A stretch of 64,000 bases of DNA, taken from contig MKUW01000021.1 of assembly GCA_001899005.1 (NCBI GenBank), positions 1 to 64,000 on the forward strand. The letters are read 5' to 3'. Shown piece by piece: positions 1-64,000 of this stretch; position 1 is the first letter of the stretch; each line of letters opens with the position of its first letter. This DNA comes from Chloroflexi bacterium 44-23 (GTDB lineage: Bacteria; Chloroflexota; Anaerolineae; Anaerolineales; Anaerolineaceae). The notes under the pieces are model-generated. The model saw only the letters and a list, made by a program, of their open reading frames with translations, was not told the origin of the DNA and made no database searches. The position numbers and the translations under genes are program-made.

Positions 1-96
1 TCGGCCAGTTGATTTATAATTAACATACCAGTCCTTCTTCACCCCGCACTGGCCGCAATCCACCGGAATCGGTGGCCGAATTCACCGGAATGCGCA
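1..96. mobile_element. Possible end of an IS21-type insertion sequence
   Basis: The window opens with two imperfect tandem copies of a ~22-base unit, roughly 48-69 and 70-91, both ending in CACCGGAAT and containing TGGCCG. Repeated motifs of this GGCCGAATTCACCGGAAT kind are, as I recall them, common in the multiple terminal repeats of IS21-family elements. The stop codon of the neighbouring RHS gene lies inside this repeat, so the element appears to have inserted into the 3' end of that gene. The transposase genes would lie left of the window and cannot be seen. The boundary at about 96 is a guess. Confidence 0.4.
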
Positions 97-1962: not shown

Positions 1963-2035
1963 GAAATTGTAGGTTATAGTACGGTATCAGTTCCGAATTT
2001 ATAGATTATTTGCAATTTTCTATCTCCATCATTAA

Positions 2036-2995
2036 TTATGGAAATAAATTACCTTCAACTTGAAAACAATTACCGTTTTGTAATAGGTTTGTAACCTCCT
2101 CAATCGATAAACCAAGTTCTGAAATTGTCCTTAGGTAATGCTTTATAAGATCAAATCTTAGCAATTTATTTACAAAATCAGAATTATTAATACTATCAAA
2201 TACATAAACATTCATTCTAGAAATTTGACCATCAAAAAGTATTTGTGGACAAAAAGAAAATACAGATTGTTTAATAATCTCTCCCGAATATATTATTATT
2301 AAGTTTTGAGGTTTATAAATTAAGAAAAGCTCATAACCAGTATATATCGGATGACCACCAGTATATTGGCTCATAATCCAGATATCATCTGGTCTACCAA
2401 GCAGATTGAGAATGTTTTCTGGTGAATATTGTGATGGATTTTTAAGTTTTGAATTGACTTCCAATTCCATAAATTCAACATGAACGTAATTAACTAAACC
2501 ATCTAGAATTCCAAAGGTGATTACATTATTGAAACCCATGGTTTTATCAAATCCCTCTAAAAACACTTGAACAAAATCTATCCCTGAAAAATTATTTTCA
2601 AAATATTCTGTTTTAAAACCATTGGCACCCAGGTTATTTCTTAATTCATAATACGTTGTTTTACCAGGATGAACATCCCAAAAGCACGGTAAATCGCAAT
2701 TTCCTATATTATTGATAACGGCATTATAGATTTCTTTTTTTTCATCAACTGTTATGTTAACAACCGTAATCGTCGGAGTTGGGGTTGGAGTTGGAGCTTT
2801 AACAATTGGAATCTTCGAGGGATGTCGGGTAAATATCGCAGTTGGAAGCACTATTTTTGTGGATGTGGTAGATGGAGTAATCTTTAATTCAAGTGTTTCT
2901 GGAAACTTTGTAGTGGTTGGTTTGATTGAATTTGTATTACCTCCACATGAAGTTAAGAAGAAAACTAAAACGAAAATTAGGTTGATTTTTTTCAT
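2036..2995 (-). CDS. Putative lipoprotein, candidate immunity protein
   Basis: 319 residues if translation starts at the ATG at 2995, which has AGGGA about 5 bases upstream; an in-frame start at 3022 is less convincing because it puts nine residues before the signal peptide. The N-terminus is MKKINLIFVLVFFLTSC, a classic lipobox signal peptide, so the protein should be anchored outside the membrane. A low-complexity stretch rich in Pro and Thr (TPTPTPT) follows as a spacer, then a globular domain that I do not recognise. It sits directly downstream of the RHS-metallopeptidase gene, the place where an immunity gene is expected. That role is inferred from position only. Confidence 0.6.
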   Translation of the reverse strand: MKKINLIFVLVFFLTSCGGNTNSIKPTTTKFPETLELKITPSTTSTKIVLPTAIFTRHPSKIPIVKAPTPTPTPTITVVNITVDEKKEIYNAVINNIGNCDLPCFWDVHPGKTTYYELRNNLGANGFKTEYFENNFSGIDFVQVFLEGFDKTMGFNNVITFGILDGLVNYVHVEFMELEVNSKLKNPSQYSPENILNLLGRPDDIWIMSQYTGGHPIYTGYELFLIYKPQNLIIIYSGEIIKQSVFSFCPQILFDGQISRMNVYVFDSINNSDFVNKLLRFDLIKHYLRTISELGLSIEEVTNLLQNGNCFQVEGNLFP

Positions 2996-36220: not shown

Positions 36221-36252
36221 CCAGAGTCAAAACGCACCGGTGAATCACAACG

Positions 36253-36280: not shown

Positions 36281-36314
36281 TCTCATTCCTATTGAAAGAA
36301 CACAGGAGGAACAC

Positions 36315-37176: not shown

Positions 37177-37191
37177 ATCACAAGACCCCAA

Positions 37192-37229: not shown

Positions 37230-37247
37230 ATTTCACAGGAGACAGAC

Positions 37248-37967: not shown

Positions 37968-37984
37968 TTTACAAGGAGATGAAT

Positions 37985-38419: not shown

Positions 38420-38425
38420 ACCAAT

Positions 38426-38460
38426 TAAGACACGCAGGGAAAGAAATCCTGTGTGTCTTA
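38426..38460 (+). promoter_or_regulatory. 13-bp hairpin before dnaN
   Basis: TAAGACACGCAGG (38426-38438) pairs with 38448-38460 with one G-T wobble and a 9-base loop. It sits about 20 bases before the dnaN ribosome site. Confidence 0.65.
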
Positions 38461-38482
38461 CATAAAAACAAGGAGATCTTGA

Positions 38483-41429: not shown

Positions 41430-41458
41430 TTCATATCTCCTATTATTCACAAACCAAT

Positions 41459-41860
41459 TTACATTTCACTGACCAAGTGACAAACACAATTCTTACCATC
41501 TACATCATCTGTGGGAAATGTAAGTCCCAGAGCATGTAAATCACGAAGCTCAGCCTCGAGACGTTGCAGGACGATAATTCTTTCAGCAACCTCCTCCGTT
41601 TTTTGTTGGATTTGATTCAACAATGTACGACAAGGTGCTTCATGTTTATCCCTTAGTGCAAGTATTTCTCGGATATCATCCAAGGAGAGATCCAGGCGTC
41701 GTGCACCAGCAACCAGTCGTAATCGATTAATATCTGTTTGGTCGTTATCTCTGTAACCGTTAGGCTTACGTATTGGTGATGGCAAAACCCCCGATTCTTC
41801 GTAAAAACGAATTGTCTTGGTTGACACTCCTGTAGCTTTGGATAACTCTTGAATTTTCAA
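41459..41860 (-). CDS. merR: MerR-family metal-responsive regulator
   Basis: 133 residues. The N-terminal winged helix reads IQELSKATGVSTKTIRFYEESGVLP, followed by the dimer helix and three candidate metal cysteines: one in KHEAPCRTLL and two in NCVCHL at the C-terminus. This arrangement suits Hg(II)/Pb(II)/Cd(II) sensing, and merA directly downstream points to Hg(II). It is first in the merRA operon and sits behind a 19-base-spacer promoter, so it controls its own transcription. Confidence 0.88.
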   Translation of the reverse strand: MKIQELSKATGVSTKTIRFYEESGVLPSPIRKPNGYRDNDQTDINRLRLVAGARRLDLSLDDIREILALRDKHEAPCRTLLNQIQQKTEEVAERIIVLQRLEAELRDLHALGLTFPTDDVDGKNCVCHLVSEM

Positions 41861-46742: not shown

Positions 46743-49700
46743 TTACTTAAATTGTTTATGATTTGAGCATTCAAAATACCTGGCTTTCTCAGCTGAATAA
46801 TTTGAAACAGCTTTGACGACATCCGATTTAGCTAAGAGAATCATTCCTTCGATGCTTGGCTCTTGATGAGCTTCGTTTGTGGATGGTATCAACTTTTCTC
46901 TCCAATACTTCATTACAATAAATGGATTTCCGTTTTGATCAACCAATGTAAAACCATGCTGAAAAGGCCCAGGAAACAAATTCTTAACAAGTTGAAGAAT
47001 TGGATGAGGAACAAGAATCACTATTTTGCCAAACATATCACGCGTAACACTAATTCCTACTAATGGGCCATGAAAAGGAACGCTGACATTTGAAGGATCA
47101 ATCTTTTTTTGCCAAGTTTCTATATTGCCATATCCTAAAGGCAAACCTTCATTACTATGCCAATCGGAGGCAAATTGTATTCCTGAATAATTACGGATTT
47201 CTCCAACCAGTGATTTTTCATAATCGTCTTCGTACTGAACTTCAGTTTCCGAATGAGCAAGAATCACCCAACCCTCATATTCACCTGCTGGCACATATTT
47301 TAATTCTTTTTCATTACACCCTTCTGGTTGTGATGAACAACGCGGAAGGTACCAAGGGCGGATAATACGGCTGAACATTTTTCGAACCGTTATGTCAACG
47401 TCTTGCAGCAAATTATCACCAACGATTTGCTCAACAGAGTAATTGAAATTACCCATTTTCGCGAATTCAGATCTTGCTGTCGTGCCTACTGTTTGAACCG
47501 CCCTTTCAGCCTCCTCATCAACCGGAAGCCATGCAGGGTTATAAAGTCCTCTATTATGCGGGTCAATTTCATGAAGAGTTCGCTGCATTTCCCTTTTCAA
47601 GTCATCGGAATTGACAAGAACATCTACGTATTTGGCAACCTGTTTTCCAAACTCCGGCCAAATTCGGTTTATTCTGGATATTCGTTCTTTGCCTATCCAT
47701 TCCTCAATGCTTGATTGCTTATTTTTTGGAATTTCAGGAAGTATAGGTAAAGCCGTGGGGCTTTGAATTTCATTTGGAATTTCAGCTCTGGTTAAAAGTC
47801 TTTTTGCCAATGAACGTAAACTAGAATAGGGGCTTGCCAATAATAAGATAAGATCCTCTTTTATTATTTGTGTTACTTCAAATGGATCTGGTTCATACGT
47901 AGCTACTAACTGTAGAAGTATTATTTGTGTTGAGATGGGGGTATTACTGGAAAGTGCAAACCTTAAAGCAGAAGCAAAAGATGATCTGTCGGTTGTAATA
48001 GATAAAGCTGCAGCTGCTACTGCCATTCTTTTTTCATGAAGAAAGCAACAATTGATACGAGAAAAAATAACGGAAACCAACCATTTTTCAGCATCATTCG
48101 AAATATAGTTATAAGGAATATCAATATCATCATGCGGCCCCGTATTGGGTAAGCGGTGACTTATGATATTACATGCTGCTTTCCATGATGAAAAAGCTTC
48201 ATCTACAAGACCTCCAGCGATGAGCAGTTCAATAAGGTGAGCAGTTACTCCGTTATCACCTCCACTAGCAACTCGTTCTGAAACCTCTATCGCGAGTGTC
48301 GACCAAGTTGTCTCTGGATCGAGTTCAAGAGCTTTATAGAAGTTGTTTATTGCTTTCTCGCCGGCAAAACTCCTCCACCCATCTCTGGATTTTGTATACA
48401 CATATGTATTCGCAATTGCAGCTAACCTACTTAAACCATGACGTTCTAAACCAATAGCAATATCGAGAAAGAACTGTTCAGCATTCCAGGATGGTAGATC
48501 CTGAGCAATTTGCCGGAGCACAGATTCAGCAGAACCTTCATCCCCCGCTTCTATCATTTCGATTAGACGCCAGCCAACCATATTCGAAAGACGCTGAGAA
48601 TTACCACGAACACCTCCAGAATCACGCCATACTCTTACACAATAAGTGATTTGTACCGGAGTAGCCATTTTAGGGAGTATCGGAAAAACTATTTTCTCGG
48701 AATTTTCATGAAGATCAGCTTTTAAAATAGCATCGGTTTTTTCTTCTCCTTTCTCATTTGTGGTCACTTTCTTTTCATAATGAGCATCTATCCCAAGTCG
48801 ATTTGCTGACTCAACTAACAAATAGGGCAATTCATCAGGGACATTAAATCCATCTCCATCTAAACAGCCCACAATTACATTCCAAAGAGTTCTTGCAAGA
48901 TCTACGTTATTATTCAAATCTTCACAGCACTTAAGAGTAGCATTTATATTACTTCTTGCTTCCGATCCAATCGCAAGCCATCCTGCGACAAGAAGAGCAG
49001 GATTGATTTGACTGAAAAGGGCTTCTAGTGCATATGGAATCGCATGGTCAAGCACTGCAAAATTCGGAAGTTTATCAATCCCATATTGTGATAAATAAGT
49101 TAAAGCTCCAGAGGGTTGAATTCTTGCAGCTTTATCTAGCCATTGATGAATCGCATGACTGGTTTCTCTGCCGTCTGTATGATTAATAACCTGTTCAACT
49201 ATCGGCTGAACATCGAATAAACATCTATGAACTTTGACTGGGTCAACCGATGCAAGTTTATCTAAAGGATCTAGCAACTCATAAACCGTTATGTCTTTTC
49301 TTTCCCCATAACTAAATAAGAAATGGCAGGCTTCTCGCCAGGCTTTCTCAGCAAGAATTTTCTCACCCGAAAATACTAAAAGCCGAACAAGTATAAGTTG
49401 ATCTATAGCATGAATATCATATACTTCTGAGCATCTTAGCTTTGGATTAAGGAGCTCTATTCCAAAAGTTGCAGATATTCGTCGTTTCTCCTCGGAATTA
49501 GCTGTTGAGATACAGAGTTCAAACAATTCATCGAGGGGTAAAGGACCATTTCGAATGCTTTGTAACCAAGTACTTGTCTTTACACTAATATCTTTAAGAG
49601 CACTTAATGCTAACTCCCAATGTTTGTCATCAAGAAATGAGAGCATTTTCCGGAAAGAGCGTCTAATAAGATCATGGAGTTCATAAAGATCACAAGCCCT

Positions 49701-52700
49701 TGGTTTCCCTTCAAAAACCTCAATATTTTGACTCAGATCAGCAAGGGCAGATACGATTTCATCCTGTGTTGATTTTGAACGATAAATAACTAAACAAAAT
49801 CTCAGCCATTTGTGGAACCAAGAATCAGGTTGAATGGCTATTTCGGATTGTGCCAAGGATGATTGATCACCTTTGGCATCTGAATATGATATAGCCGAAA
49901 TCCAATAAGCTAATGACTTGTTATCGAATTGAATTCTGTCTGAAATAACTTTGGTGGTTAATCCATTGAGATCAAGAACATCATCAGGAAATAGTTTTGG
50001 ATCTACACCTTTTTCTAAGCAAAATAGCCATTCATCTGGTGGGAGGCCATCCAAAATCGAGTTTTCAGCATAGGCCTTAGCATCAGCCTCGTTATTACTG
50101 CTCAAAGCCAGTACAAGGTAACAAAAAGCTCTCGCTAAACTCTTTGGTAATAAATTGACCACCTCGATTAGCGCGTCAGGGCCATATAATTGGAGGATTG
50201 TCCAATTAATATCTATTGGGTGTACCGGGGGTTCATTTGATGAATTTAACAAATCACAACATAACTTTATTGATAGTTCTCGTCCACTTAACCGAAATCT
50301 GCCGGTCAGGCGAGCAATATTGATTACATCATTACTACCGTCGGCATATGTAGTATCTTTTTTTTGTAACTCTTTATCGTGGGCTTTTCGGTACTCAATC
50401 CAAGGTGGAATAACGCCTTCATCATCACAAGTTTTGCAAAGTACTAATCCTGACCGTGCTGGGAAAGTGCAGCGATTGTTAGATAAAAGACGTTCCGATA
50501 ATAACTTTGCACCAAACAAAGCCGAAAAGGATTTCCCGTAATTTTCAGCAATGGGGTAATCATCTAATCTCCACTTATAAAAATGATAAGCAGCGCGTGA
50601 TAACTCTATTAGCCGGGTGAGATCTGTCCACAATTTCTGGGTTGCAGCTATCTCTGCTGCTAAAGCGAGATTAGCTTGTACAGCATCCGCAGGTTGCCCA
50701 TAAGCAATCGAATTAATCACAAAATCATCATTTATTCTTGCGATAACCTCTTCTTTCCTACCTACTACAACAAGTAGTTTTAATAGGGAACGATAAGCTC
50801 TTGTATCTGAATAGAACCCACGACTATCCAACCAATTAGCGACAGGAATGAGGATGGCAGCAATATTAGCTTCTGGATCCGATTCCAGCCTCTGCCTCAT
50901 AAATCGCTGGAAGCTTTCATGATAGAGCCTTACTCCGCCAAGAGTTATATCTTCCGTCAGAACTGGTGATAAATGAGTAAGAATCTTGCTGATGTAGTGG
51001 CCGATATCAGGTTTAATTTGTTTTATTTCTGACGCTGCTAATGGAAAGTCCACAAGAGACAATAATTCGCCAATCCAAATAACCCCCGTATCTCTTGCTA
51101 ATCCATTTATTAGCCACTGATAATACGCGTCTAAATTTTGATCAAGTGCCGGAACAGCTGATAAGTATTCAGGAACATCAGATATATCCTTAGTATTTTC
51201 ACTATCACGAATGGAGAAAACCATCCTAACTAGATAAGCAGCATAAAGAGGATTGCCATCGGCTTTCTTTTTTATGACTTCTTGAACACGTTCATAATCA
51301 CTATCCAACCCTAAAACCGATAATATCTCCCTCAGCTCCATGCGATCAACAAGCTGACGCATTGAACCATCATTCCATTTCTGGACGATATATTCAGTGC
51401 CTAATGAAAGATATGAAGCTAAATGTGTGCCGGGTTGAGAACCCACAATAATAACAACACCAGGAGGGATTTGGAGAGCAGCCAATTCCTGAATTATCTC
51501 GGCAGCAAGTCCGGGCCGCACGGAACCGGGGAGGCGATCAGCATGATCTAACCCATCAACAATGATAGCTATTTTACTCCCCACATTTTGTCGATTTCTA
51601 TGAGTCAGTAATTTCTCTAATTCATGAGGTCCGGCCGAAAACCGTGGTACTACATCAGTTGAAAGCGATGGGTCTTTTTCAAGGAGTTGTGCAATAATAC
51701 TTCCGAAAATAGTGTCGATAGAATTTCTTTGAATTAAGTCCGGATCAAAAGCATCGATAAAACAATAATGTAACGCGGTAAGCCATCCATTTTCTGTTAA
51801 GTACGAATTTAGTTCATGTAAAAGCCATGATTTTCCCATTCCTGGCGAACCGGTAATCGCTATGCGCGAGTTTTGCTCTATAATCCTTGAGATTTCAATT
51901 AGGTGGTCATTCTGCGGAACAAGTCGATTCTCTGATATAGGGAAGTTTTCTTCTACCTTTCCATAGTCCACCCGTAAAGCCAAAGTTTCAATCACAGATT
52001 GTTGGTCTAAAGTATCACCATGAGCGCGAGCGATACTTGCAGCTTTAATTAAATGGGCAGCTGCATCAAATACATCACGGTTATGGTTTGGCCATAAACC
52101 TACCCCAATTTTTTCGTGTAGGACATTAAGGAGTATGTTATCCAAAGGACCTGGGATCCGTAGATCACCAGATGCTCTAGGGCAATTTGTCTCTATAGTG
52201 AACCGTTCACAAAACGCAAGAAAAACATCCCGTCCAAAAACATCTACATGAGGCCAAAGCGGTACTGTACTCTCGGGCCAAATCTTTTCCGGGATTAGTT
52301 TGTATCGCTCTGTTGCAAAACACGGAAGAAGAGGAGCTATTAATGGTGTTGTGAACAAATAAGGCGCCAATTCCGCTTCCGGAGAGTCATATGAAGTGAA
52401 GAGGCAATATGAATTGGCTGGATTTGGATCTTCGTAAAAACTACGGATAGCTTTATCAATACGAAATGATATTCGGTTTGTTGTGAAGTCGGATAGTAAT
52501 AGAGGGCGGTAATCGCTCTCATGTGATTTTATCTGAATTCGTGATCGTTCCTTGCCTGATAATTCGAGGTCATCAAAGCAGTCTTCAGCGATTACCTTCC
52601 GATCAACGGTAACTTTCACCCCCTCAAATTTAGGTAGCAAAATAGTTGCGAGAGCACATGCAGTTATGCAATCTTGATGGTTATACCCGAAGTGTGCTGC

Positions 52701-52715
52701 TGATAGTGAAGGCAT
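46743..52715 (-). CDS. Avs-like STAND NTPase with N-terminal Cap4/DUF4297-type nuclease
   Basis: 1,990 residues. Residues ~8-65 match the Cap4/DUF4297 endonuclease pattern: GYNHQDCITACALATILL, acidic D48-D49, then IQIK with Q61 and K63. The STAND NTPase has Walker A GSPGMGKS at 289-296 and Walker B IAIIVDGLDHAD at 382-393. The remaining ~1,500 residues are helical and repeat-like, as in sensor domains of Avs proteins, which recognise phage proteins and switch on the nuclease to stop infection. A CKTC pair (LVLCKTCDDEG) near residue 755 may bind zinc. It is the last gene of the minus-strand defence cluster, 233 bases after the 723-residue gene. The target and the exact Avs class cannot be told from sequence alone. 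Confidence 0.75.
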   Translation of the reverse strand: MPSLSAAHFGYNHQDCITACALATILLPKFEGVKVTVDRKVIAEDCFDDLELSGKERSRIQIKSHESDYRPLLLSDFTTNRISFRIDKAIRSFYEDPNPANSYCLFTSYDSPEAELAPYLFTTPLIAPLLPCFATERYKLIPEKIWPESTVPLWPHVDVFGRDVFLAFCERFTIETNCPRASGDLRIPGPLDNILLNVLHEKIGVGLWPNHNRDVFDAAAHLIKAASIARAHGDTLDQQSVIETLALRVDYGKVEENFPISENRLVPQNDHLIEISRIIEQNSRIAITGSPGMGKSWLLHELNSYLTENGWLTALHYCFIDAFDPDLIQRNSIDTIFGSIIAQLLEKDPSLSTDVVPRFSAGPHELEKLLTHRNRQNVGSKIAIIVDGLDHADRLPGSVRPGLAAEIIQELAALQIPPGVVIIVGSQPGTHLASYLSLGTEYIVQKWNDGSMRQLVDRMELREILSVLGLDSDYERVQEVIKKKADGNPLYAAYLVRMVFSIRDSENTKDISDVPEYLSAVPALDQNLDAYYQWLINGLARDTGVIWIGELLSLVDFPLAASEIKQIKPDIGHYISKILTHLSPVLTEDITLGGVRLYHESFQRFMRQRLESDPEANIAAILIPVANWLDSRGFYSDTRAYRSLLKLLVVVGRKEEVIARINDDFVINSIAYGQPADAVQANLALAAEIAATQKLWTDLTRLIELSRAAYHFYKWRLDDYPIAENYGKSFSALFGAKLLSERLLSNNRCTFPARSGLVLCKTCDDEGVIPPWIEYRKAHDKELQKKDTTYADGSNDVINIARLTGRFRLSGRELSIKLCCDLLNSSNEPPVHPIDINWTILQLYGPDALIEVVNLLPKSLARAFCYLVLALSSNNEADAKAYAENSILDGLPPDEWLFCLEKGVDPKLFPDDVLDLNGLTTKVISDRIQFDNKSLAYWISAISYSDAKGDQSSLAQSEIAIQPDSWFHKWLRFCLVIYRSKSTQDEIVSALADLSQNIEVFEGKPRACDLYELHDLIRRSFRKMLSFLDDKHWELALSALKDISVKTSTWLQSIRNGPLPLDELFELCISTANSEEKRRISATFGIELLNPKLRCSEVYDIHAIDQLILVRLLVFSGEKILAEKAWREACHFLFSYGERKDITVYELLDPLDKLASVDPVKVHRCLFDVQPIVEQVINHTDGRETSHAIHQWLDKAARIQPSGALTYLSQYGIDKLPNFAVLDHAIPYALEALFSQINPALLVAGWLAIGSEARSNINATLKCCEDLNNNVDLARTLWNVIVGCLDGDGFNVPDELPYLLVESANRLGIDAHYEKKVTTNEKGEEKTDAILKADLHENSEKIVFPILPKMATPVQITYCVRVWRDSGGVRGNSQRLSNMVGWRLIEMIEAGDEGSAESVLRQIAQDLPSWNAEQFFLDIAIGLERHGLSRLAAIANTYVYTKSRDGWRSFAGEKAINNFYKALELDPETTWSTLAIEVSERVASGGDNGVTAHLIELLIAGGLVDEAFSSWKAACNIISHRLPNTGPHDDIDIPYNYISNDAEKWLVSVIFSRINCCFLHEKRMAVAAAALSITTDRSSFASALRFALSSNTPISTQIILLQLVATYEPDPFEVTQIIKEDLILLLASPYSSLRSLAKRLLTRAEIPNEIQSPTALPILPEIPKNKQSSIEEWIGKERISRINRIWPEFGKQVAKYVDVLVNSDDLKREMQRTLHEIDPHNRGLYNPAWLPVDEEAERAVQTVGTTARSEFAKMGNFNYSVEQIVGDNLLQDVDITVRKMFSRIIRPWYLPRCSSQPEGCNEKELKYVPAGEYEGWVILAHSETEVQYEDDYEKSLVGEIRNYSGIQFASDWHSNEGLPLGYGNIETWQKKIDPSNVSVPFHGPLVGISVTRDMFGKIVILVPHPILQLVKNLFPGPFQHGFTLVDQNGNPFIVMKYWREKLIPSTNEAHQEPSIEGMILLAKSDVVKAVSNYSAEKARYFECSNHKQFK

Positions 52716-52948: not shown

Positions 52949-55120
52949 CTATTCGATCGTAGCTTTTTCAATAGCTGCATCAATAATTCGGAACCAATCT
53001 TCTTCGTCAAGAATTACTAATGGATAACCAAATTGTCCAGAAACAAACTGAAAATCTTCTCTCACTTCATCATTGATTGTGTTGGGGATTGACACCCCAA
53101 TAATATCTAGATCTGCGCCTTGAATTGTTGCTAAATATGCAGAGTGACAATACTGTGTATAAAGTCCCTTGATTGAGGGTACCGACCTTCCAAGACCGCG
53201 AACTTTTGATCTCTCTCTGCTTTTTAGGTGGATCCCTATCCGTTTTTCTTCTCCAGTGTTTATCCATACATCTGGATATCGAATATCAGCTATCTCATGG
53301 CCATGATGAACGCCGTCAAACTCTTCATCAACAGCATAACCGAACAATCTGGAAAGACATAGATCATTACCAGCTTTTATCCTGGCCGTGGTTATTACTT
53401 CTCGCATGCAACCACTGCAAATTTCATTACTGGAGTGACGATTGTTTCGGGCGCACTTTTCTTTTATGCGCCAAAGTATCTGACCATATTGATTTTTTCT
53501 TTCATCAGAAATATTTCGTTGGTGAATATGTGCCCTAGTTTGCCACATTTGGAATTCGGATAAATGATATTCGTTGATTGCCACTCTATTTCTTGGGAGC
53601 AATCTTAAAACATGTCCAATGATTATAAAACTACCATCGAATTGTTGATTCTCCAATACGCCTAAAAACCTGTGGATTGCTTTTAGAAGCTGTACCCCGG
53701 GAAGAATCCTGATATCTGCCGAAAATGTCAGCTCAATATTGGCTCCACAGTCGCAGGGGAACAACTCATTATCTTGATATTGATGCTCATTAGGATGGGT
53801 GGAGCATTGAAAAATGAGCTGGTGATCTACAACAATAGGGGTTAGAGGAGAATTACAAACTGAACAGCGAGCGATATTATCCCCGCAATTTTCACAGTGA
53901 ATATTTAGTGCTGGAACAATGTCAAGGAAATGATATTGTTCAACCAGGGTCCTAACGAAAACAGGATCGAATTGAAATTCTGTAGTACGTGACCTTCGAG
54001 CTCCAATTATCGCTTTTATCAATTCCTCGAAATAATACCGTTGTTGAATTCTTAGTTTTTTTCTGCCAAGGGTTACAGGCACATGTCGATAGTACGCTAT
54101 AAACCCATTCGGATTAATATCAGCCTCCCTATTTAGTTCCTGTTCTGTTTTCTGGATTAAGTTGATAGAGAGAGCTAATAGGGAATCTTTTCGTAAGTGT
54201 GTTGGCGTCCATATACGGCCGTATTGACGTGATATTCCCATTCCACCTTGGACTAAATCGGGATGACTTGAATAAAAACCAAAAGTTTGCTGGCGGGATG
54301 GATCACCGGAAAGAGATCGATAGGATCTTAGTTCTCCTAAAGAAGGATCTGAAATTGTGAGAGACTGGGCATCAAAATTACCGATTGAATCATCGTCAAT
54401 ACGTGAAAAGGAGGCCGTCCTTGGATTTGCTCCTTCTGCTAAACGATCTAGCATTTCCTCGGAAAGATATGGAAGCTGCCAACTTATGGACAACAATGTT
54501 CTACAATAATAGAGAATTGGCTTAACTGCTTGGAAATCCGCACATAATAAAAGGGCATGCCTAAACTCTCTGCTATACCAGATAATTGCTTTTTCTAGAC
54601 TGTAAATAACATTTACTTCTCCAAAGTCTTCCGACTCCGGATCAGAAACCACATATTCAATTTTCTTTTCATAAACGAGAGGAATCTCTTGAAATGGTAT
54701 TTGTGTAACAACCTCTCTCGCAGGAGTAATGATGTAAACTGACCTTACTGTTCGATCCAAACCAAATTGAACCGCTGCCTCTTGCATCTGTTCTGCAAGT
54801 TTAGTAGTCGTCTCAAGAAGGTGCTGAAAATCTGGCCAGGAGTTAACCGACACCAGATAAAGTGTTGGGCTTGAAGATAATGGATAGTTCGCTTTTGTAT
54901 CTTCAAGAGCATTGTGTCCATTTTCCGTAGATTGTAGAACCTCCACTAATTGAATTTTTGAGAAATCATCAAGCCTACGCCTTAAGTCGGTTTCAGCCTG
55001 GATTTTTAACATTTCTCGAATTTGGTCGCCAGGAATATTCCGGATGACTAATTCAATGATTTCTCGTTTTGGGACAGGAGTTCCACCAATGGGCATATTT
55101 TTCCCTTGCTTTGCTTCCAT
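52949..55120 (-). CDS. Uncharacterised zinc-ribbon protein with possible PD-x-x-K nuclease end
   Basis: 723 residues; the ATG at codon 9 (55096) has AGGGA seven bases upstream and may be the true start. I know no family for the whole protein. Residues ~85-210 look like an alpha/beta domain (TLYLVSVNSWPDF ... HALLLCADF). A zinc ribbon has C409, C412, C419 and C422, with further Cys at 439, 456 and 458, and CSGC at 568-571. The C-terminus has PD at 616-617 followed by IHLK (K633), a spacing that fits a PD-(D/E)xK nuclease with His at the variable position. It follows brxL by 69 bases, on the same strand. A role in defence is inferred from position and the nuclease-like end. Confidence 0.6.
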   Translation of the reverse strand: MEAKQGKNMPIGGTPVPKREIIELVIRNIPGDQIREMLKIQAETDLRRRLDDFSKIQLVEVLQSTENGHNALEDTKANYPLSSSPTLYLVSVNSWPDFQHLLETTTKLAEQMQEAAVQFGLDRTVRSVYIITPAREVVTQIPFQEIPLVYEKKIEYVVSDPESEDFGEVNVIYSLEKAIIWYSREFRHALLLCADFQAVKPILYYCRTLLSISWQLPYLSEEMLDRLAEGANPRTASFSRIDDDSIGNFDAQSLTISDPSLGELRSYRSLSGDPSRQQTFGFYSSHPDLVQGGMGISRQYGRIWTPTHLRKDSLLALSINLIQKTEQELNREADINPNGFIAYYRHVPVTLGRKKLRIQQRYYFEELIKAIIGARRSRTTEFQFDPVFVRTLVEQYHFLDIVPALNIHCENCGDNIARCSVCNSPLTPIVVDHQLIFQCSTHPNEHQYQDNELFPCDCGANIELTFSADIRILPGVQLLKAIHRFLGVLENQQFDGSFIIIGHVLRLLPRNRVAINEYHLSEFQMWQTRAHIHQRNISDERKNQYGQILWRIKEKCARNNRHSSNEICSGCMREVITTARIKAGNDLCLSRLFGYAVDEEFDGVHHGHEIADIRYPDVWINTGEEKRIGIHLKSRERSKVRGLGRSVPSIKGLYTQYCHSAYLATIQGADLDIIGVSIPNTINDEVREDFQFVSGQFGYPLVILDEEDWFRIIDAAIEKATIE

Positions 55121-55188: not shown

Positions 55189-57267
55189 TTAAACCTTGTA
55201 TATATCCACCTTCGTTTCCAAGCATTTCCTCAATGATAGATCATTGGCGCCGATTTCATTCCAGCTTTGGGGTTTCTGGTAGAAATCCAATCCTCGACCA
55301 ATTTTTACCACCCAGCCGTTATCCAGCCGAATTTCACGATCATGAATGTTTGGGTTAAAGTCAAAGTCGAAAACAATATCAACTTCGAGCAGGCTTTGTT
55401 TCAGGTCGCCTAGTTTCTGTTCAATCTCCAACTTCTGAGTTTCATCGTCATACCCAGTGATCAATTCGATGCGTTTGATGCCCGACAATTTGATAATAAC
55501 CTCACAAAAGCGAACAAGGTTCTGAATTTGGTGAGGCATACGAATGTAGGGGTCTTCAATCTCGATACTCTTTGAACCTGTAAAGTAGGGGCCAAAAATA
55601 GTCTCATAGCTATAGCCAGTATCACCATAAAAAATTGTGTAATGCTTTTCGCTTAGTTCTGGTTCTTTGGGTGAAACGATTTCTGGCTGGACCATTACTG
55701 CCACTTCTGAAGGCAGCTCGACCACAGTTCTAGTTTGAGCTTTCCTCGTTTTTGCTTCCGGATTCTCTTGTGCTCCTGAATTCAATGAACGCCGGAATGG
55801 ATGCTGTGTAGCAGTTGCGTTACGCGATTCCGGACAAAAAACCACGACTTCTTTTCCATCTGGGGCAAAATAGGACAGGTTAATCCGTGCAAACTCATCA
55901 TCAGGTTTGCGTTTGTTCATTTGTTCTTTTACACGCCGCCTAGCTTCAACTGCATAAGCTACATATTCGTCAAATTCTGAATCGCTGGGTGGACCATCGG
56001 GATGCAGTATTTTTAGAAAAGCACATACAGTCTTTTTGATGCCCTTTTCATCGCGGCCTTCGACATTCTGTCCCAATCGAATTCGCTTATTGACTTCCTC
56101 GTACCGATTGGTGTGAGAGAATTGATGATGAAATGCTTCCGCCAAATAATCCGTAATGAAACCATAATTTCCCGTCAGAAAATCACTGCTATTCTTCGGC
56201 ATTTCCCAACCGGGTAAATAGGCGGCAAACCGATCCATTATTGCCAGATCAAACTCTCTTGGCATGGGAATAAAAAGATCATGTTCAGTCGAATTGACTA
56301 ATTGTTCAATGGAATGATCGATATTCCCGTTGAATGCCAGGCTCGCGTCGGCAATCACTTCGGCTCCACGCGAGAAACGACCGTTTGCCATGAAATCTTT
56401 CATGATCTGGATGGTTGTGGAGTCTTTGATTTGGATGCCGGCGACCTCATCAAAGGCAACGGTATCCCAGAAACCAACCAGGCCGGTTCTTTTCCGGGCA
56501 TTGTTGTAGAACAATATTGGGGTTGTAGCCTGTCCGCCACTGACCAGGGTTGAATAGGGAGAAAATTCGCTAAAGAAGTACGATTTTCCAGTTCCCCTGG
56601 GACCTAGCTCGATAAAATTGTAGTTAGGTTCCACCAAACATGCCAATCGGAGCATAAAGTGGAATTTCAACCGCGTTGAGAGCTTCGTTGGCTCTAATCC
56701 GACAGAGCGTAAAACAATATCCAACCATTCATCTCTTGAAAACTTACTCCGACCTGCTGCATACCCATCGAAATCAAACCGGCTCAATTGAATTGGTCGC
56801 AAATCTTCAACATAGAACGTGTAATCGTCATCTTCAATTTCGTTGTATCCAATGGTAATTTCAGCCCAAATACCACCTTCTAACAGACGATCATTATCGC
56901 GATAAAATTTTTCATTGATAGCCACCCGCTGGGAATTAAAGTTTTCAAGGGCAGCCCAATGGCGCTTTTCTTTCTCAACATAGTTGACATGGACTTTATC
57001 AATAAAGCGGTGTTTTCCTTTGGTTGCGACCTTAGACTGAGCAGCGTTCGCTTCGTCTGCGCGCACATAGTTATCCTGAAGGGTTGCCAGGACAGCTTCC
57101 AATCCCTCCTGGATTTCTTTGGGATCTTCACTGGCGCAATACCGTGCCAATAGAAATTCCAATACAAACGTTGGGACATTCGTGCCCTTTTTGATACGAT
57201 GTAATAAATCTTTGCGGACAGCTTTACCTTCAAAAACCTCAAGAAGTTTCTCGTCTAATATATCCAT
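55189..57267 (-). CDS. brxL: BREX Lon-like ATPase/protease BrxL
   Basis: 692 residues, close to the usual BrxL length. AAA+ core: Walker A GPRGTGKS near residue 224, Walker B-type FDEVAG near 270, then the conserved SRGAEVIADASLAFNGN and PREFDLAIMDRFAAYLPGWEMPK. An acidic/low-complexity linker near 490-530 precedes the C-terminal Lon-like domain. BrxL is an AAA+ factor of type 1 BREX phage defence. It starts two bases after the pglZ stop, so the two are coupled. Confidence 0.9.
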   Translation of the reverse strand: MDILDEKLLEVFEGKAVRKDLLHRIKKGTNVPTFVLEFLLARYCASEDPKEIQEGLEAVLATLQDNYVRADEANAAQSKVATKGKHRFIDKVHVNYVEKEKRHWAALENFNSQRVAINEKFYRDNDRLLEGGIWAEITIGYNEIEDDDYTFYVEDLRPIQLSRFDFDGYAAGRSKFSRDEWLDIVLRSVGLEPTKLSTRLKFHFMLRLACLVEPNYNFIELGPRGTGKSYFFSEFSPYSTLVSGGQATTPILFYNNARKRTGLVGFWDTVAFDEVAGIQIKDSTTIQIMKDFMANGRFSRGAEVIADASLAFNGNIDHSIEQLVNSTEHDLFIPMPREFDLAIMDRFAAYLPGWEMPKNSSDFLTGNYGFITDYLAEAFHHQFSHTNRYEEVNKRIRLGQNVEGRDEKGIKKTVCAFLKILHPDGPPSDSEFDEYVAYAVEARRRVKEQMNKRKPDDEFARINLSYFAPDGKEVVVFCPESRNATATQHPFRRSLNSGAQENPEAKTRKAQTRTVVELPSEVAVMVQPEIVSPKEPELSEKHYTIFYGDTGYSYETIFGPYFTGSKSIEIEDPYIRMPHQIQNLVRFCEVIIKLSGIKRIELITGYDDETQKLEIEQKLGDLKQSLLEVDIVFDFDFNPNIHDREIRLDNGWVVKIGRGLDFYQKPQSWNEIGANDLSLRKCLETKVDIYKV

Positions 57268-57269
57268 AG

Positions 57270-59789
57270 TTACACCGTATAGTCCGTTTCAAGTTCTAAT
57301 GATTTACCCAGGGCGGTTTGTGTGATCGGATCAAGAGCTTTCACAATGAATTTACCCTCAAAATCCATATCCATTTTTAGTGTAATTGGAATGGTGTCTC
57401 CTGGTTTTAGCGTAATGATTCTGGTTGCCGGGTTTACCGGACCGCCAAGTTTTGCTTCGCCAACGACATGTCCTTTTACATCGTAAGCTTCAATTAGCAG
57501 CTCCGTTTCCTGGGCAAAGAGATCCGAAGCTCCGGCTTCAACCTCTATGACCGGTAATCGGGTGGTGATCTTTTTGGAGCCTCGCTTGTAATTTAACATC
57601 ACTGATAGTTTGCTACCAATTCCAGTCTCTGCGGCGCGAATCTTCACTGCGATGACGGGCACAATCGCTTCCTGAAGCGAAAGCCCGCCGTGGAAATACC
57701 ATTGCCCAGCGCGATATGCCACCATTGCACGCGGAACCGCTACCTGGTTAAAGTCTCCTTTGATGCCAAACATTTCAGAGGGTAGAACCAGGTTGGATGC
57801 ATCGCCAATCCCATCGCCGAGAAGTGTTCTCTCATGAACATTGATCCATTTCCCGGATGGTTTCACGCACACATCGCCTGGTTCAATGGCTGTATTCAGG
57901 AAAAAGCCATGATCGGTGGCAATGATGACATCCTGAAATCCAAGGTCACGTAATTTATAGATAGCCGACCGGATTTTCTGGAAGGTACGACTGATTAATC
58001 CTGGAGCCGCTTCTGGATTGGCTTCAAAATCATTATCCATATCATTACTGCGAATGACCAGAAGTTCAACGGTGCTCTCAATCTTGGGATGATCACGGAC
58101 AAACCGGACCAATTCCATTTCTGCAAAACGCTGCCCATACTTTTTACGCAGCACATCCATGCGTTGAGCGACGGTGGCTAATGGCTGGTCACCGAATACG
58201 ACCAACAACTGATTATCCTTATTCGTAATTATTAGGTTTTGACCGGCCCCGGGTAACAGTGTCGCCATCCCAACGGGTGTGACTGTAGGCATCTGAGCGC
58301 AAGCCATCTGAACATCAATTTGCCCAGCTTCGTTCAAGTGCTTTGCTAACTCAACACCGAGTTCATAACGCATGGCATCGATCAACAAATAAGCCACGCG
58401 CCGGCCGCTTTCGAGCAATTTCGGTGCGACCAATTTATCAAACACATCAGCATTCGATAAGCGCCCCGAGATTGGCCAGCCGGATTTTTCGATATGTCGT
58501 ACGAAAACTCCATGGATCTTGTCCATTAATTTATGGTACATTGAGCGCGATTGATTGATCACCTCTATTGATGCGCCACCTGAATCGAGGAGATCTCCAG
58601 CAGCTTGTTCAAATTCACGCTGGATGCGATCTACTTCGCGGATATTGCTGGTGTAAAAGTCCAACAAGGTATCCAGTGTACGGGTGTGCTCGGATAGCTG
58701 GCGGTCGGTGTCTTCGCATGCCTGGGCTAGGCTGGCAGCCGAGTGGAGCAGCGCCCACTGGGCCTGGTTTTCACCCCGACTGACCCAGACCGATTGCTCA
58801 TGTCGATTTAAGATACTGCGCAGTTTATCGACATTATCCCTTTTAAGGGCATCTACTGCTTGGTTGAAACAGGCACGTTCTTCAAACGGGAAAGTATCGC
58901 GAATGCCAAAATCTTCATTTTTCTCGCATATTGACGGCAGATTTAATTCTTTTTCTATTCCCTCAGCCCGCTCAATATATAACGCTTGAGTGCGCCGGTC
59001 ATTCCGTAACCGGTCACACAGATCTTCCACGAGGTGGAGCGCCTCTTGGGGGGCGCAAGGCACGTTCGTTAAAGCAGGCGGAAGATCGCCGGGTAGATCA
59101 AAGTCGAATTCACTGAACAACAAGAAACGCCACAGCTCATCTGCAATCGCGTTCCACGTTTTGATTTTGGTTTTCAGGTTAAGGCCCAGTGTGCTTTGGA
59201 ATAATCCTGTTGCTTCAGATACCCAGGTTATTTGGTTTTTAAGGGCTTCTTTTTGCGTTTCGGAAGGTGCAAGCAATGCAAACAAAATATCGCGAGCTGA
59301 TTCAACTTTGAGTATCGCTTGCAGGTTTGGCCAGCCTGCTCCTCCGCCAACGGCGTCAATGACCGCAAAACCGGGATTAGGATTGTCCTTAAAAATCCGG
59401 CGGATTTCGGTAGCATAATCCGCGCGTGCTTTCAAGCAAAGACTGAGGAATTCATCCCCATCTCCCTCTGGAAAAACAGAGCCGCAAGCGCCGTAAATGG
59501 CAAACGGATCGCGTTGTTTTTCCTCATCCGTGATCGGCGGCTTGGCGGGAACATACACCAGGATGCCCTCAAGGGATGGGTTGGGCTGGCCAAACTCATT
59601 GAGTGCTTCCAGTGCAGCAAAGCGGCTGGTGATGCTGCTTTCGGATGCATCAATGACACGCAGTTTTTCAGCGTTCAGCTCCAAACACAGCTCGTGGTAG
59701 CGCTGGTCGGGGTCATACACAACCAACACCCCATTTTGTTTGAGGCGTGGCAAGAATATTTTTTTTTGGATGAAATCTTTAATCGTCAT
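57270..59789 (-). CDS. pglZ: BREX alkaline-phosphatase-superfamily protein PglZ
   Basis: 839 residues from the ATG at 59789 (the frame is open to 59816). The PglZ domain has VAYLLIDAMRYELGVELAKHL near residue 470 (metal-binding Asp), and VIIATDHGFFLN further on, the two hallmark metal motifs. The C-terminus is a beta-rich domain. PglZ is essential for BREX. It overlaps the end of pglX by 11 bases and runs into brxL without a gap, which is the type 1 BREX order. Confidence 0.9.
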   Translation of the reverse strand: MTIKDFIQKKIFLPRLKQNGVLVVYDPDQRYHELCLELNAEKLRVIDASESSITSRFAALEALNEFGQPNPSLEGILVYVPAKPPITDEEKQRDPFAIYGACGSVFPEGDGDEFLSLCLKARADYATEIRRIFKDNPNPGFAVIDAVGGGAGWPNLQAILKVESARDILFALLAPSETQKEALKNQITWVSEATGLFQSTLGLNLKTKIKTWNAIADELWRFLLFSEFDFDLPGDLPPALTNVPCAPQEALHLVEDLCDRLRNDRRTQALYIERAEGIEKELNLPSICEKNEDFGIRDTFPFEERACFNQAVDALKRDNVDKLRSILNRHEQSVWVSRGENQAQWALLHSAASLAQACEDTDRQLSEHTRTLDTLLDFYTSNIREVDRIQREFEQAAGDLLDSGGASIEVINQSRSMYHKLMDKIHGVFVRHIEKSGWPISGRLSNADVFDKLVAPKLLESGRRVAYLLIDAMRYELGVELAKHLNEAGQIDVQMACAQMPTVTPVGMATLLPGAGQNLIITNKDNQLLVVFGDQPLATVAQRMDVLRKKYGQRFAEMELVRFVRDHPKIESTVELLVIRSNDMDNDFEANPEAAPGLISRTFQKIRSAIYKLRDLGFQDVIIATDHGFFLNTAIEPGDVCVKPSGKWINVHERTLLGDGIGDASNLVLPSEMFGIKGDFNQVAVPRAMVAYRAGQWYFHGGLSLQEAIVPVIAVKIRAAETGIGSKLSVMLNYKRGSKKITTRLPVIEVEAGASDLFAQETELLIEAYDVKGHVVGEAKLGGPVNPATRIITLKPGDTIPITLKMDMDFEGKFIVKALDPITQTALGKSLELETDYTV

Positions 59790-62700
59790 TGAACCAACCT
59801 TCTGTCTCTTCATCAATTGCTGGTTTTTTGGCTTTTTTCTTTTTAACGGATGCCGGCGGCTCTACGTACAATTCTTCTAAATCGTGCGCAATCGCTATCG
59901 ATTTATCGGTCTTACACTTTTCACGCACACGCTCTGGCCAGATGCTGTAAGCCAGATGCGCCCAGTCGTATTCGCCAGATTCAAGTTTTGACCAGGTTTC
60001 CCGCAGACGTTTCTGCCAGGGTTTGTGTTGGAATAGCTTCCACAACGGGGCGGCGGTAATTTCCACACCATCGTTCAAATTCGGTTTCCAGAACTTCGCC
60101 ACACGCAGCAATTCTTCACGGAAATCTTTCAATTCGCGCTCGAAATCCGTCAGGCGCTCCAGTTCTTTTTCATCGGCAGCTGAGCGGCCTTTCTTCAGTC
60201 GCAGGCGGGCAGCTTCCTCGGATACTTGCTTGAGCTTCACATCGACAAAGTCATTCACGCAGGTATAGAGTGTCTGATCGTTCAGACGGTGGTAATACAA
60301 CCATAGGGTATATGAACAGGATGGTGTGGAAAGCGGCCAGTAGATTGGTGCAGCGCGGCGGCTCTTAGAATAGCGTTTGAGGTGATCGGCAAAAAACAGA
60401 GCCGGTTTATTATAATATTCCCGTATAGTGTGCACACCCAAGATCTGGCAGGTTTCATCTTCGATGGTTTCGACTCGCTCGCCCCAGATAATATGTAATA
60501 CATTACGTATACGCCCTTCAATATCTTCAAAATGTCCTTCATCATCTACCAGAATCCCCGACCAGGAAATCCGCAGAGGGTAATAGGAAGGCATATTCTG
60601 CGAAGCAGCAGGAAAATCTTGGACGTCATGCAGCATTCCTGGCGGGTAAGCAGGCAACGGGGCAAAAGGATCAGATAAATCGGAAGTAGATATTTGATTA
60701 AAGGCATGTCTTATGTCCCAACGCCCAAGTAGGCATCCAATTATCCACATAAATAAATCAATTTTCAATTCACTTTGGGAACGAGTGCGGAAAACATGTT
60801 TCTTCATTAAAAATGAAGTGGTAGCTAATTCTTTAAATTGGTCCTTATTAATATTTAATGCAACTTGAACGCAATTATCAATTTCATCTATATTTTTTAG
60901 AATCTTTTCTTCGGTAATATCTAAAAACGAAATATCATCCGAAGATATTAATGGTCTAAGAAAATATGGGGACAGCTCGCAATATTGTTCAAGTAATAGC
61001 ATCGACCTAACTGCTTCTTTGGTTAAAGGTCCAATTAGATTTTCTGTCAAATAGAGAAGGTTTAACCCATAAGGTAAATTTGCAACAGCACGATTCTCGT
61101 ATGCTCGATGGCGTCCAAACGCTTTCAGTAAAACATCACTCCAACTTGAGACCAATAACCCTAAAAGTGCGTAAATATTGTTCTGATCTGCTAAGAAAAT
61201 TGACATTCCCTTTTCTGAAAAAATACATTGAGAAGGTAGAATCTTGGGGCTAAACGATAGATTTACCCTTGGATAAGTCAAACCAGGTCGAAACCACTTT
61301 GATATACTTTGAATAATTTGTCCATCCGTACCATATAAACCTATTTGAAAACTACGGGGTTCAGCACCATTGTTTGACCAGTTGAATACCAAATTAGTCG
61401 GCGAAATAAGAGGTTGGTACTCTCCGCCTTTTTCATAGGAAAACCAAATTTTATTAAGAGATTCAGGTGAAACCTCATTGCGAAGTCGTAGAAATCTAAA
61501 ATCATCAAAAGTATGATTTCCAGCAACAACTTCAGCCAAGTCTGGCTCGAGCCTTTCTTGTTCTTTCCATAAATGAAGAAGATTTGAATTCATGTGTAGA
61601 CACAAAGGCCACCCATATATATTCTCAAAAAAATCCAAATTATGTAGAGTAAATTGTTTTTGTTGACACGCAACGAGTAAAGAAGAATCCTTTTGAATTA
61701 TATTGAACAGATCTAGATAATTAGTAGTGGGGGTACCGTTGTTGACAAATACTGATAAAGCTGTTTCGACCGCCGCATCATCAAGAACACCGGATCCAAG
61801 TTCCACAATAATTAAGAGAGCATTTTTGGTAATTATATTTTTCCGGAGTTCACGAAGTTGTTTTGAATATAAATAAAGGAGAGATGTTATTGCGCCAACC
61901 ATTCCGTTTTCATCAAGTTTTGATTGCATTCTTTTTATAAAAGCAGCGTAAATATCTTTCCAATCATCTGCATATTGCTTTTTTAATAATGATATTGAAG
62001 AGCTTGACGGTTTACCAAAAGGTGGATTCATTAACACAATATCAAACATTTTTCTGGACAAATTGATAAATTTAAATCCTTGTGATACATCTCCAACAAA
62101 CAAACGCCGCCTATATCCCTCACCGTTTTCAGTACGTTCTGCATATTCTCCTAGTGCTACCAGTACAAGTCCTTCGGCTCGATAAAAGAAATCCTGTTCT
62201 TCGCTAGATACCACCTGCACATATTTCTCTTTCGGGGGTTCGGTCAAGCCATAGTCCAACACTCGGAAAAGTGGGGATTTTTCCTCCGATTCTTTTCGAG
62301 CTATAGAAATTGCATCCCGCAGTGTTTCCTCAATTTTCAACAAACTGCCGGCTTCCCCCGCCAGTTCCATCTCCTGCCATACCGCGCGCACTAGTTTAGT
62401 CAAGGCCTCCGCCATTTGTGGTGTAGCACGTACTTTCTTATCAGCAGGCACATACCAGGCTTTGCGCATCAGTGCTTCCAACCTTTCGCCCTGCAAGGTA
62501 CCCAAAAATTCCTCCAGCATCTGCCGGTCGCCAGGCATGGGTTCGGCACACACCACGTTGGATTTTCGGATCTGAGGGCGTTCGCTGGGGCACAGCCTCT
62601 GTGTTTGCCAACTCTTCTGGGCACGAAGCCATAGGCTCAGTCCTGCAATCTGTACCGCGCGTGGGTCAATATCTACACCGTGAACGTTGCGCTCGATAAT

Positions 62701-64000
62701 TAAACGAGATATATCACGTAAATAGGCATCTTTGTCTGAATACGTTTTGTGTAAGGGATCGAGATCCGCCAGGCGCTGTAAGGCGTCTTCTCCCAGACGC
62801 TCTTCCAGCTCCCAAGCTTCGGCGTAAATCTGCTCAAAGAGATCGAAGGCATACAGCCCAAAGTGCATCGAGCCGCAGGCCGGGTCGAGCATCTTGATCT
62901 CGCGTGGGTCCTTCAACGGCCGGTGGGGGATGAACTCGACTTCGAGGTTCCAGCGCTCACAAGTCGCCCGGTACAAATCCAGAATGGCTTTCGCGTTATC
63001 GCCCTCGGGACCTTCACCAAAATGGTGATACCTGCGCTGTTCAAAGAACAGGCAGCAGCGCAATTCATCGAAAGTTCCTTCCCATTTCCCGCTTTCGTGA
63101 TACTGTTTCAATTTCTTGTTAGCGAGGTCGCCGCATTCGATCCCCCATTGTTTCCTGGCATAATCGTACCCGTCGGCAGTCAACCCATAGAGGAAAATGA
63201 TGTTCAGGTCAGTAATCTGATCGTTGGGGGGCAGCCACATTTCATGGGCAAGGTCAGGGTCGGTTTCATGCAGCTGCTCCGGCAGGAACGGCTTGGGCGC
63301 AGTCTGCCCCTCAGCCAGGAAAAAAGCGTGCTTTCGCCGTACCAGGTAGCGGCAGCTATCTATTAGCGCCGTCTCGCCTTTAGTCATCTCGTACCAGATG
63401 CGCCCCAGGGTGTTATCGGTCAGAAATTCCACCACGTAGCGTGGCGTAAAAAACTGGTTGCGTACCGCCAGCTCACGGCTGTTGCGTGGTGCCTGCGAAG
63501 CATCACGCATGGCTTTACGCTCCTCTTTGCTATTGAAATACTGGTAAATCCAGCCAATCGTCTCATCCTCGGTCCATAACGGATCGATCTCTGGATCGTT
63601 AATCAGTTCCAATAGTTTAAGCAAAGCAGTTTCGCGAGGAAAGAGCCGTCCCTGCGGGCTAAATCGGTCAAACAGAACCGGCAGATCGACGGCAAATTCA
63701 TCCATCAAACTGAAGAGGTACATGCGATAGGCTTCACCCATCTCACCCAGGGCGCTGCCCGCCAGGCGGGTATAAAGTTGAAAACCTTTCGATTGGTATC
63801 CGTTGGCAATCGATTCTAAAACCAACCCGCGTGCTTCTGACATGCGAAATGCACACAGCCGGTTGAGGATGGTAAACGCCTGTTCACGCACTATGCGATC
63901 CAAAGTTTCCCTCACCCCTGCCGCTCTCCCAGAGGGCAAGGGGTTCACACCCGCCAGATAGTAATCCAGGGTTTCGCGTAATATCCGCGCCGTCTCACGT
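59779..64000 (-). CDS. pglX: BREX adenine-specific methyltransferase PglX, 5' end outside the window
   Basis: The frame stays open to the window edge upstream of the GTG at 63948, so the real start is beyond 64000; at least 1,406 codons are present. Numbering from 63948: RNQFFTPRYVVEFLTDNTLG near 165, SAM motif LDPACGSMHFG at 354-364, NVHGVDIDPRAVQIA near 421, catalytic NPPFG at 641-645. Residues ~645-1085 form the specificity region and are encoded by AT-rich DNA unlike the flanks. The C-terminus is Lys-rich. PglX methylates an adenine in a non-palindromic site to mark self DNA. brxA, brxB and brxC are expected to the right of the window. Confidence 0.92.
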   Translation of the reverse strand, partial: RETARILRETLDYYLAGVNPLPSGRAAGVRETLDRIVREQAFTILNRLCAFRMSEARGLVLESIANGYQSKGFQLYTRLAGSALGEMGEAYRMYLFSLMDEFAVDLPVLFDRFSPQGRLFPRETALLKLLELINDPEIDPLWTEDETIGWIYQYFNSKEERKAMRDASQAPRNSRELAVRNQFFTPRYVVEFLTDNTLGRIWYEMTKGETALIDSCRYLVRRKHAFFLAEGQTAPKPFLPEQLHETDPDLAHEMWLPPNDQITDLNIIFLYGLTADGYDYARKQWGIECGDLANKKLKQYHESGKWEGTFDELRCCLFFEQRRYHHFGEGPEGDNAKAILDLYRATCERWNLEVEFIPHRPLKDPREIKMLDPACGSMHFGLYAFDLFEQIYAEAWELEERLGEDALQRLADLDPLHKTYSDKDAYLRDISRLIIERNVHGVDIDPRAVQIAGLSLWLRAQKSWQTQRLCPSERPQIRKSNVVCAEPMPGDRQMLEEFLGTLQGERLEALMRKAWYVPADKKVRATPQMAEALTKLVRAVWQEMELAGEAGSLLKIEETLRDAISIARKESEEKSPLFRVLDYGLTEPPKEKYVQVVSSEEQDFFYRAEGLVLVALGEYAERTENGEGYRRRLFVGDVSQGFKFINLSRKMFDIVLMNPPFGKPSSSSISLLKKQYADDWKDIYAAFIKRMQSKLDENGMVGAITSLLYLYSKQLRELRKNIITKNALLIIVELGSGVLDDAAVETALSVFVNNGTPTTNYLDLFNIIQKDSSLLVACQQKQFTLHNLDFFENIYGWPLCLHMNSNLLHLWKEQERLEPDLAEVVAGNHTFDDFRFLRLRNEVSPESLNKIWFSYEKGGEYQPLISPTNLVFNWSNNGAEPRSFQIGLYGTDGQIIQSISKWFRPGLTYPRVNLSFSPKILPSQCIFSEKGMSIFLADQNNIYALLGLLVSSWSDVLLKAFGRHRAYENRAVANLPYGLNLLYLTENLIGPLTKEAVRSMLLLEQYCELSPYFLRPLISSDDISFLDITEEKILKNIDEIDNCVQVALNINKDQFKELATTSFLMKKHVFRTRSQSELKIDLFMWIIGCLLGRWDIRHAFNQISTSDLSDPFAPLPAYPPGMLHDVQDFPAASQNMPSYYPLRISWSGILVDDEGHFEDIEGRIRNVLHIIWGERVETIEDETCQILGVHTIREYYNKPALFFADHLKRYSKSRRAAPIYWPLSTPSCSYTLWLYYHRLNDQTLYTCVNDFVDVKLKQVSEEAARLRLKKGRSAADEKELERLTDFERELKDFREELLRVAKFWKPNLNDGVEITAAPLWKLFQHKPWQKRLRETWSKLESGEYDWAHLAYSIWPERVREKCKTDKSIAIAHDLEELYVEPPASVKKKKAKKPAIDEETEGWFNDD
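63906..63946. repeat. REP-like dispersed palindromic repeat within pglX
   Basis: CCCTCACCCCTGCCGCTCTC followed by CCAGAGGGCAAGGGG is an imperfect inverted repeat of a type widely dispersed, as I recall, between genes in many environmental bacteria. Here it is read in frame as NPLPSGRAAGVRE in pglX. A family search would be needed to confirm it. Confidence 0.5.

Follow-up and report, generated by a model that had tools for sequence, protein, structure and literature searches.

A widespread family of STAND nucleases with an Avs3-like fold, and a member downstream of a BREX operon in Chloroflexi bacterium 44-23

Contig MKUW01000021.1 of Chloroflexi bacterium 44-23 (Anaerolineaceae, assembly GCA_001899005.1) was analyzed over its first 64,000 nt (the window). 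The window contains an open reading frame in which a predicted nuclease head is joined to a STAND NTPase and a helical sensor. Is this protein a phage sensor of the Avs type, and if so, what might it recognize? The protein is best read as an Avs-type innate immune receptor of Avs3-like build, in which sensing of a phage protein would lead to cutting of DNA by the head. We give this reading a probability of about 0.78. The features of the locus are listed in Table 1.

Table 1. Coordinates of the STAND gene, its domains and motifs, and adjoining genes in the window
Feature	Position	Strand	Remarks
STAND gene	46743..52715	-	intact ORF, 1,990 aa: nuclease head, NTPase and sensor
Cap4/DUF4297-type PD-(D/E)XK nuclease head, residues 1–253	51957..52715	-	AF2 pLDDT 93; matches 7yib, 9c1m, 9ux7
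Nuclease core motif, residues 45–63 (D45, D48, D49, Q61-x-K63)	52527..52583	-	kept in 72–73 of 73 aligned members
STAND/NACHT NTPase, residues 254–540	51096..51956	-	Pfam NPHP3_N/NACHT; NB-ARC, NACHT and Apaf-1 folds
Walker A GSPGMGKS, residues 289–296	51828..51851	-	P291, G292, G294, K295 invariant in family
Walker B IIVDGLDH, residues 384–391	51543..51566	-	D387, G388, D390, H391 invariant in family
Winged-helix/arm region of STAND module, residues 541–700	50616..51095	-	from model; H599, S601, F602, R604 conserved
Alpha-helical solenoid sensor, residues 701–1660	47736..50615	-	AF2 of residues 800–1990, pLDDT 88; Avs3 8dgc match
Sensor motifs Y-x3-KD-x-T (1136–1143) and HTDG-x-x-T (1179–1185)	49161..49310	-	conserved
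Separable C-terminal module, residues 1661–1990	46746..47735	-	separate downstream gene in several relatives; beta strands in model
723-aa protein, no known family, between brxL and STAND gene	52949..55120	-	no Pfam, PADLOC or NCBIfam match
brxL, type 1 BREX	55189..57267	-	PADLOC BrxL, E 5.6e-283
pglZ, BREX	57270..59816	-	PADLOC PglZ, E 0
pglX, BREX	59779..63948	-	NF033452 BREX-1 PglX, 660 bits, above cut-off

The three-part anatomy of the protein is established, and its catalytic and P-loop residues are intact and conserved. The initial annotation had named D48/D49 and Q61-x-K63 as the nuclease pattern and had pointed to Walker motifs. All of the named nuclease residues are present and are conserved in the aligned relatives: D45, D49, Q61 and K63 are found in each of the 73 aligned members and D48 in 72. 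Both Walker motifs are present and their key residues are invariant in the family. Pfam gives matches of the NPHP3_N/NACHT type only, at approximately residues 282–456, and the winged-helix/arm region carries a YHESF motif at residues 598–602. The sensor was originally described as a long helical one. A helical solenoid is indeed predicted (AlphaFold model of residues 800–1990, mean pLDDT 88) and continues to about residue 1780, however the model ends in a beta-rich domain at residues ~1799–1988. Among the sensor motifs, Y1136 is conserved in 100%, D1141 in 97% and T1180 in 97% of the 73 members. A further conserved motif, F-x-G-x-PR-x2-DL, is at residues 1001–1010.

The AlphaFold model of residues 1–705, built from 51 sequences, has a mean pLDDT of 93.1. 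The best Foldseek match of this model is terminase-bound Avs3 (8dgc_A, E 5.6e-16), and VIA-align pairs model positions 1..705 with chain positions 4..688 of the same structure. By VIA-align the nuclease head matches Cap4 (7yib, Z 15.4, rmsd 3.3, 211 residues aligned), HerA-DUF4297 (9c1m, Z 15.8) and LmuAB (9ux7, Z 13.3, rmsd 3.5, 197 residues aligned). The NTPase displays matches to NB-ARC, NACHT and Apaf-1 domains. It also matches MalT and other non-immune STAND structures, which would fit a MalT-like STAND protein with a regulatory or housekeeping role and an inactive nuclease head. Such a role is very improbable: the nuclease residues are kept almost without exception across phyla, some relatives are located on plasmids, and the distribution among related genomes is patchy (3 of 101, a count that includes the genome itself and one short fragment match).

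Residues 800–1990 also have 8dgc as the top Foldseek match (E 3.2e-10, TM 0.43), and the runner-up is far behind (E 1.5e-4, TM ~0.1). VIA-align gives Z 12.1 over 838 residues, with model positions 14..1191 on chain positions 799..2049, and Z 8.5 for the runner-up; for helical repeats a Z below ~13 is not conclusive. The match of the sensor is given weight because two programs agree, the alignment spans the whole length, there is a gap to the runner-up, and both halves of the protein lead to a single known protein, with their order kept. Each half thus has an Avs3-like fold. Structure comparison gives good support to the proposal of an Avs-like STAND protein with a Cap4-type nuclease head. Searches of PDB sequences with the STAND protein or the family profile gave no Avs match, and the link to Avs came from fold comparison alone.

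The sequence searches give a different picture of the sensor. PADLOC shows a weak, local match of the protein to Avs1b (E 1.5e-5), and NCBIfam scores Avs1b at 17 bits against a cut-off of 1500. No equivalog in NCBIfam (June 2026) is above cut-off for the family, which is without an NCBIfam, Pfam or PADLOC model. The Avs3 profiles of NCBIfam and PADLOC do not match the protein at E<=0.1, and the Avs2 and Avs4 family profiles do not match it either. HHalign comparisons were made with Avs2, Avs3 and Avs4 proteins fetched by NCBIfam models and with a true Avs1b from a locus that also has Avs1a and Avs1c (L125). In the NTPase region the probabilities are 99.3% for Avs1b, 97.3% for an Avs3-like protein and 94.4% for Avs3, and the similarity to Avs2 and Avs4 is limited to the P-loop region. 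In the sensor and the C-terminal module the probability is at most ~1% against Avs1b, Avs2, Avs3 and Avs4, and none of the Avs1–Avs5 sequence profiles recognizes the sensor. The view of the sensor as unfamiliar therefore holds by sequence but not by fold. Likewise, the sensor belongs to a described Avs class, which was to speak against the initial annotation, by fold but not by sequence or phylogeny. Y-x3-KD-x-T and HTDG-x-x-T also occur in two sister families on plasmids, P0004 and L127. The idea that KD-x-T/TDG sensor motifs are common to Avs1–Avs4 was rejected, as they were not seen at corresponding positions of the Avs1b, Avs2, Avs3 and Avs4 reference proteins.

Avs3 (AVAST type 3, the terminase sensor of 8dgc) and the STAND protein both have a Cap4-type head, a STAND core and a helical sensor in that order, and they agree in overall fold and in length (2,004–2,028 residues in the Avs3 structure). 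The STAND protein differs from Avs3 in that the sensor and C-terminal module show no sequence-profile similarity, and the family differs in that the C-terminal module is separately encoded in some members. Of the Avs classes tested, Avs1b (AVAST type 1) has the nearest NTPase profile, however the STAND protein has a nuclease head and not a protease, and its sensor is unrelated to that of Avs1b by profile. Genes for the Avs1a metallo-hydrolase and Avs1c are absent beside the STAND gene, where the neighbors are brxL, the 723-aa gene and a helicase fusion. Unlike Avs5, the head is of the Cap4 type and not Sir2. The head resembles Cap4, a CBASS effector, and the DUF4297/LmuA nucleases in fold and in the D...QxK motif, but here it is fused to STAND and solenoid regions and is not accompanied by a SAVED domain, HerA or LmuB. 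No SAVED domain was found in the protein and no CD-NTase among the adjacent genes scanned. Two unnamed plasmid-borne "ATP-binding proteins", WP_070596068 and WP_011514896, share the Cap4-like head, the STAND core and the Y-x3-KD-x-T motif. Their HHalign probability with the STAND protein is 99.9–100% over ~1,100 residues, however they are more distant and their C-terminal part is not alignable.

The STAND gene is present as a single copy in its own genome, and full-length relatives exist elsewhere. A profile scan of 84,980 species genomes, with a five-sequence alignment as query, gave 78 loci, and the family consists of about 80 loci in more than 10 phyla. These include Acidobacteriota, Actinomycetota, Bacillota, Bacteroidota, Campylobacterota, Chloroflexota, Gemmatimonadota, Planctomycetota, Pseudomonadota and Verrucomicrobiota. 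The closest relative is an Acidobacteriaceae protein with 50% identity over the N-terminal 705 residues. A tblastn search of plasmids shows a full-length relative in Pseudanabaena (30% identity) and shorter ones in Moraxella and Pseudoalteromonas. PGAP annotates the relatives just as "ATP-binding protein". No relative was detected in the viral contigs and phage records searched, and the literature search gave no functional description of any family member. Variation of the head within the family is not supported; the head aligns in nearly all loci and is strongly diverged in one (L084). On a tree of the NTPase region, made by a quick method and with some long branches, the family and its plasmid-borne sister proteins group together with support and are separate from Avs2, Avs3 and Avs4. 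The Avs3 sequences are in a starred clade of their own and the window family is in another; WP_070596068 branches outside most of the family. The family is a widespread, so far unnamed branch or variant among the Avs immune receptors already described.

The C-terminal ~330 residues form a module that can be separated from the rest of the protein. With a profile of residues 1661–1990, built from 58 fused members, the module is found as a separate downstream gene in eight loci (L035, L037, L039, L048, L055, L062, L065 and L083) and as a broken one in L063. In most cases the separate gene and the main STAND gene overlap by a few bases. The split layout is also seen on the plasmids of Moraxella and Pseudoalteromonas, and a relative in Pseudoalteromonas translucida TAC125 has a two-gene form. 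In Pseudoalteromonas the downstream protein is similar to the C-terminus of the fused Pseudanabaena protein (E 3e-6), and the Moraxella downstream protein has a weak match to the window protein (E 0.14). In a tree based on head and NTPase, well-supported branches force three changes between the fused and split states, thus the module has switched at least three times within the family. To our knowledge this split has not been described, and it was not found in the literature searched. Sister STAND nucleases of ~1,474 aa in Cupriavidus and Klebsiella plasmids (5434–11300 of L127 and 5401–11264 of L128) are followed by an overlapping or abutting gene of ~480 aa, which suggests that a split sensor layout is present outside the family as well. 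A more doubtful proposal is that the family represents a separate, phylum-wide type of Avs, in which a detachable C-terminal subunit, fused or from a downstream gene, would be part of a ligand-binding or gating surface and the phage target would differ from those of Avs1–Avs5.

Avs1–Avs4 cleave phage and host DNA upon recognizing terminase, portal or another phage protein (PMC12931631), and the Cap4 domains of Avs3 are brought together in a tetramer (PMC11291478). The STAND protein has the parts of Avs proteins in matching order; the same mechanism is the best reading, and a receptor/nuclease mechanism is quite probable. At rest the NTPase would keep the protein inactive. During infection the solenoid and the C-terminal beta-rich module would bind a conserved phage protein; the likeliest target is the large terminase subunit, in its ATPase part. 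The NTPase may then drive oligomerization, to tetramers in the case of Avs3, and join the Cap4-type heads, which would cut double-stranded DNA of phage and host and so stop the infection. We infer ligand, oligomerization, DNA cleavage and protection, the ligand from fold alone.

Large terminase is the leading guess for the trigger because the sensor matches terminase-bound Avs3 by fold; a shared solenoid fold alone is no proof of a shared ligand, and we give terminase about an even chance. The initial annotation had instead proposed that the sensor may detect a phage protein that is neither terminase nor portal; the receptor/nuclease mechanism would then be the same. The lack of a match to any Avs1–Avs5 sensor profile and the alternation of the C-terminal module between fused and split forms favor that proposal, and other Avs proteins do have unrelated triggers such as Ksap1 and JADA (PMC12931631). 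However, the sole outstanding structural match of the sensor is terminase-bound Avs3, which makes such a trigger less likely, and we regard it as possible but somewhat doubtful.

Upstream of the STAND gene is a complete BREX operon of type 1. The order is brxA/brxB/brxC, pglX, pglZ, brxL, the 723-aa gene, a 233-bp gap and the STAND gene; brxC, brxB and brxA lie beyond the window in L120 (Pfam BrxC wHTH, BrxB and BrxA). In Carboxydocella (L009) the end of brxL is 23 bp before the STAND open reading frame, and the layout in Syntrophomonadaceae (L015) is alike. These two are counted as one event since their STAND proteins are 94% identical. On the NTPase tree, members without BREX in the flanks covered lie between these two and the window protein. 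Such positions could suggest that the protein is a BREX back-up effector, which works only with the BREX complex or upon its failure and does not itself sense a phage protein. This is unlikely. Most family loci are without BREX nearby, and in the flanking open reading frames examined, called in the relatives as longest ORFs so that neighborhood counts are rough, clear BREX genes adjoin the STAND gene only in L009 and L015 besides the window. The nearest relatives (L011 and L008) have no BREX within the flanks covered, and here the 723-aa gene and the gap separate brxL from the STAND gene. A definition of the family by BREX was rejected, and the STAND gene does not show the conserved presence in BREX operons that marks a core component. 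The association with BREX is recurrent but uncommon. Many auxiliary nucleases are described in BREX loci (PMC12839542), and the STAND architecture was not found in the part of that account consulted. A promoter scan between the genes gave sites no more numerous than chance.

The 723-aa protein has a Cys-rich region containing CxxC clusters and, at the C-terminus, a PD-(D/E)XK-like motif (D...IHLKSR; D-x(n)-HLK), and is possibly an unrecognized restriction-like factor. It is rejected as an obligate partner because it is absent beside the STAND gene in L009 and L015, and its distant homologue in G785 (35% identity) has neither BREX nor STAND nearby. The region of that homologue is plasmid-like or mobile, with DnaA- and ParA-like genes nearby. 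The 723-aa protein is probably not part of the sensor.

On the other side of the STAND gene, a DUF6094 methyltransferase domain is fused to an SNF2/DEAD-type helicase in a 1,118-aa protein (43286–46642, +) that adjoins the defense genes. Inspection of the sequence by eye suggests a mercuric-reductase-like protein and a regulator of the MerR type at 39762–41860 (-), beside the defense region. Positions 22133–39643 (+) show mobile-element-like cargo, i.e. a secretion ATPase of the T2SSE type, a protein of the Rad52 family and an additional DNA polymerase III beta clamp. A 4,566-aa surface protein (6767–20467, -) displays RHS repeats and Big_1/invasin and carboxypeptidase-regulatory domains, and is followed by smaller RHS-repeat open reading frames and an amidase open reading frame (82–6122).

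The family enlarges the Avs receptors by a big, unnamed branch in more than 10 bacterial phyla whose members are currently annotated as "ATP-binding protein". The natural splits of the sensor are ready-made two-gene versions for probing the role of the C-terminal module. The BREX-linked copies permit tests of a layered defense, in which BREX would act at an early stage and an Avs-type suicide response would follow its failure.
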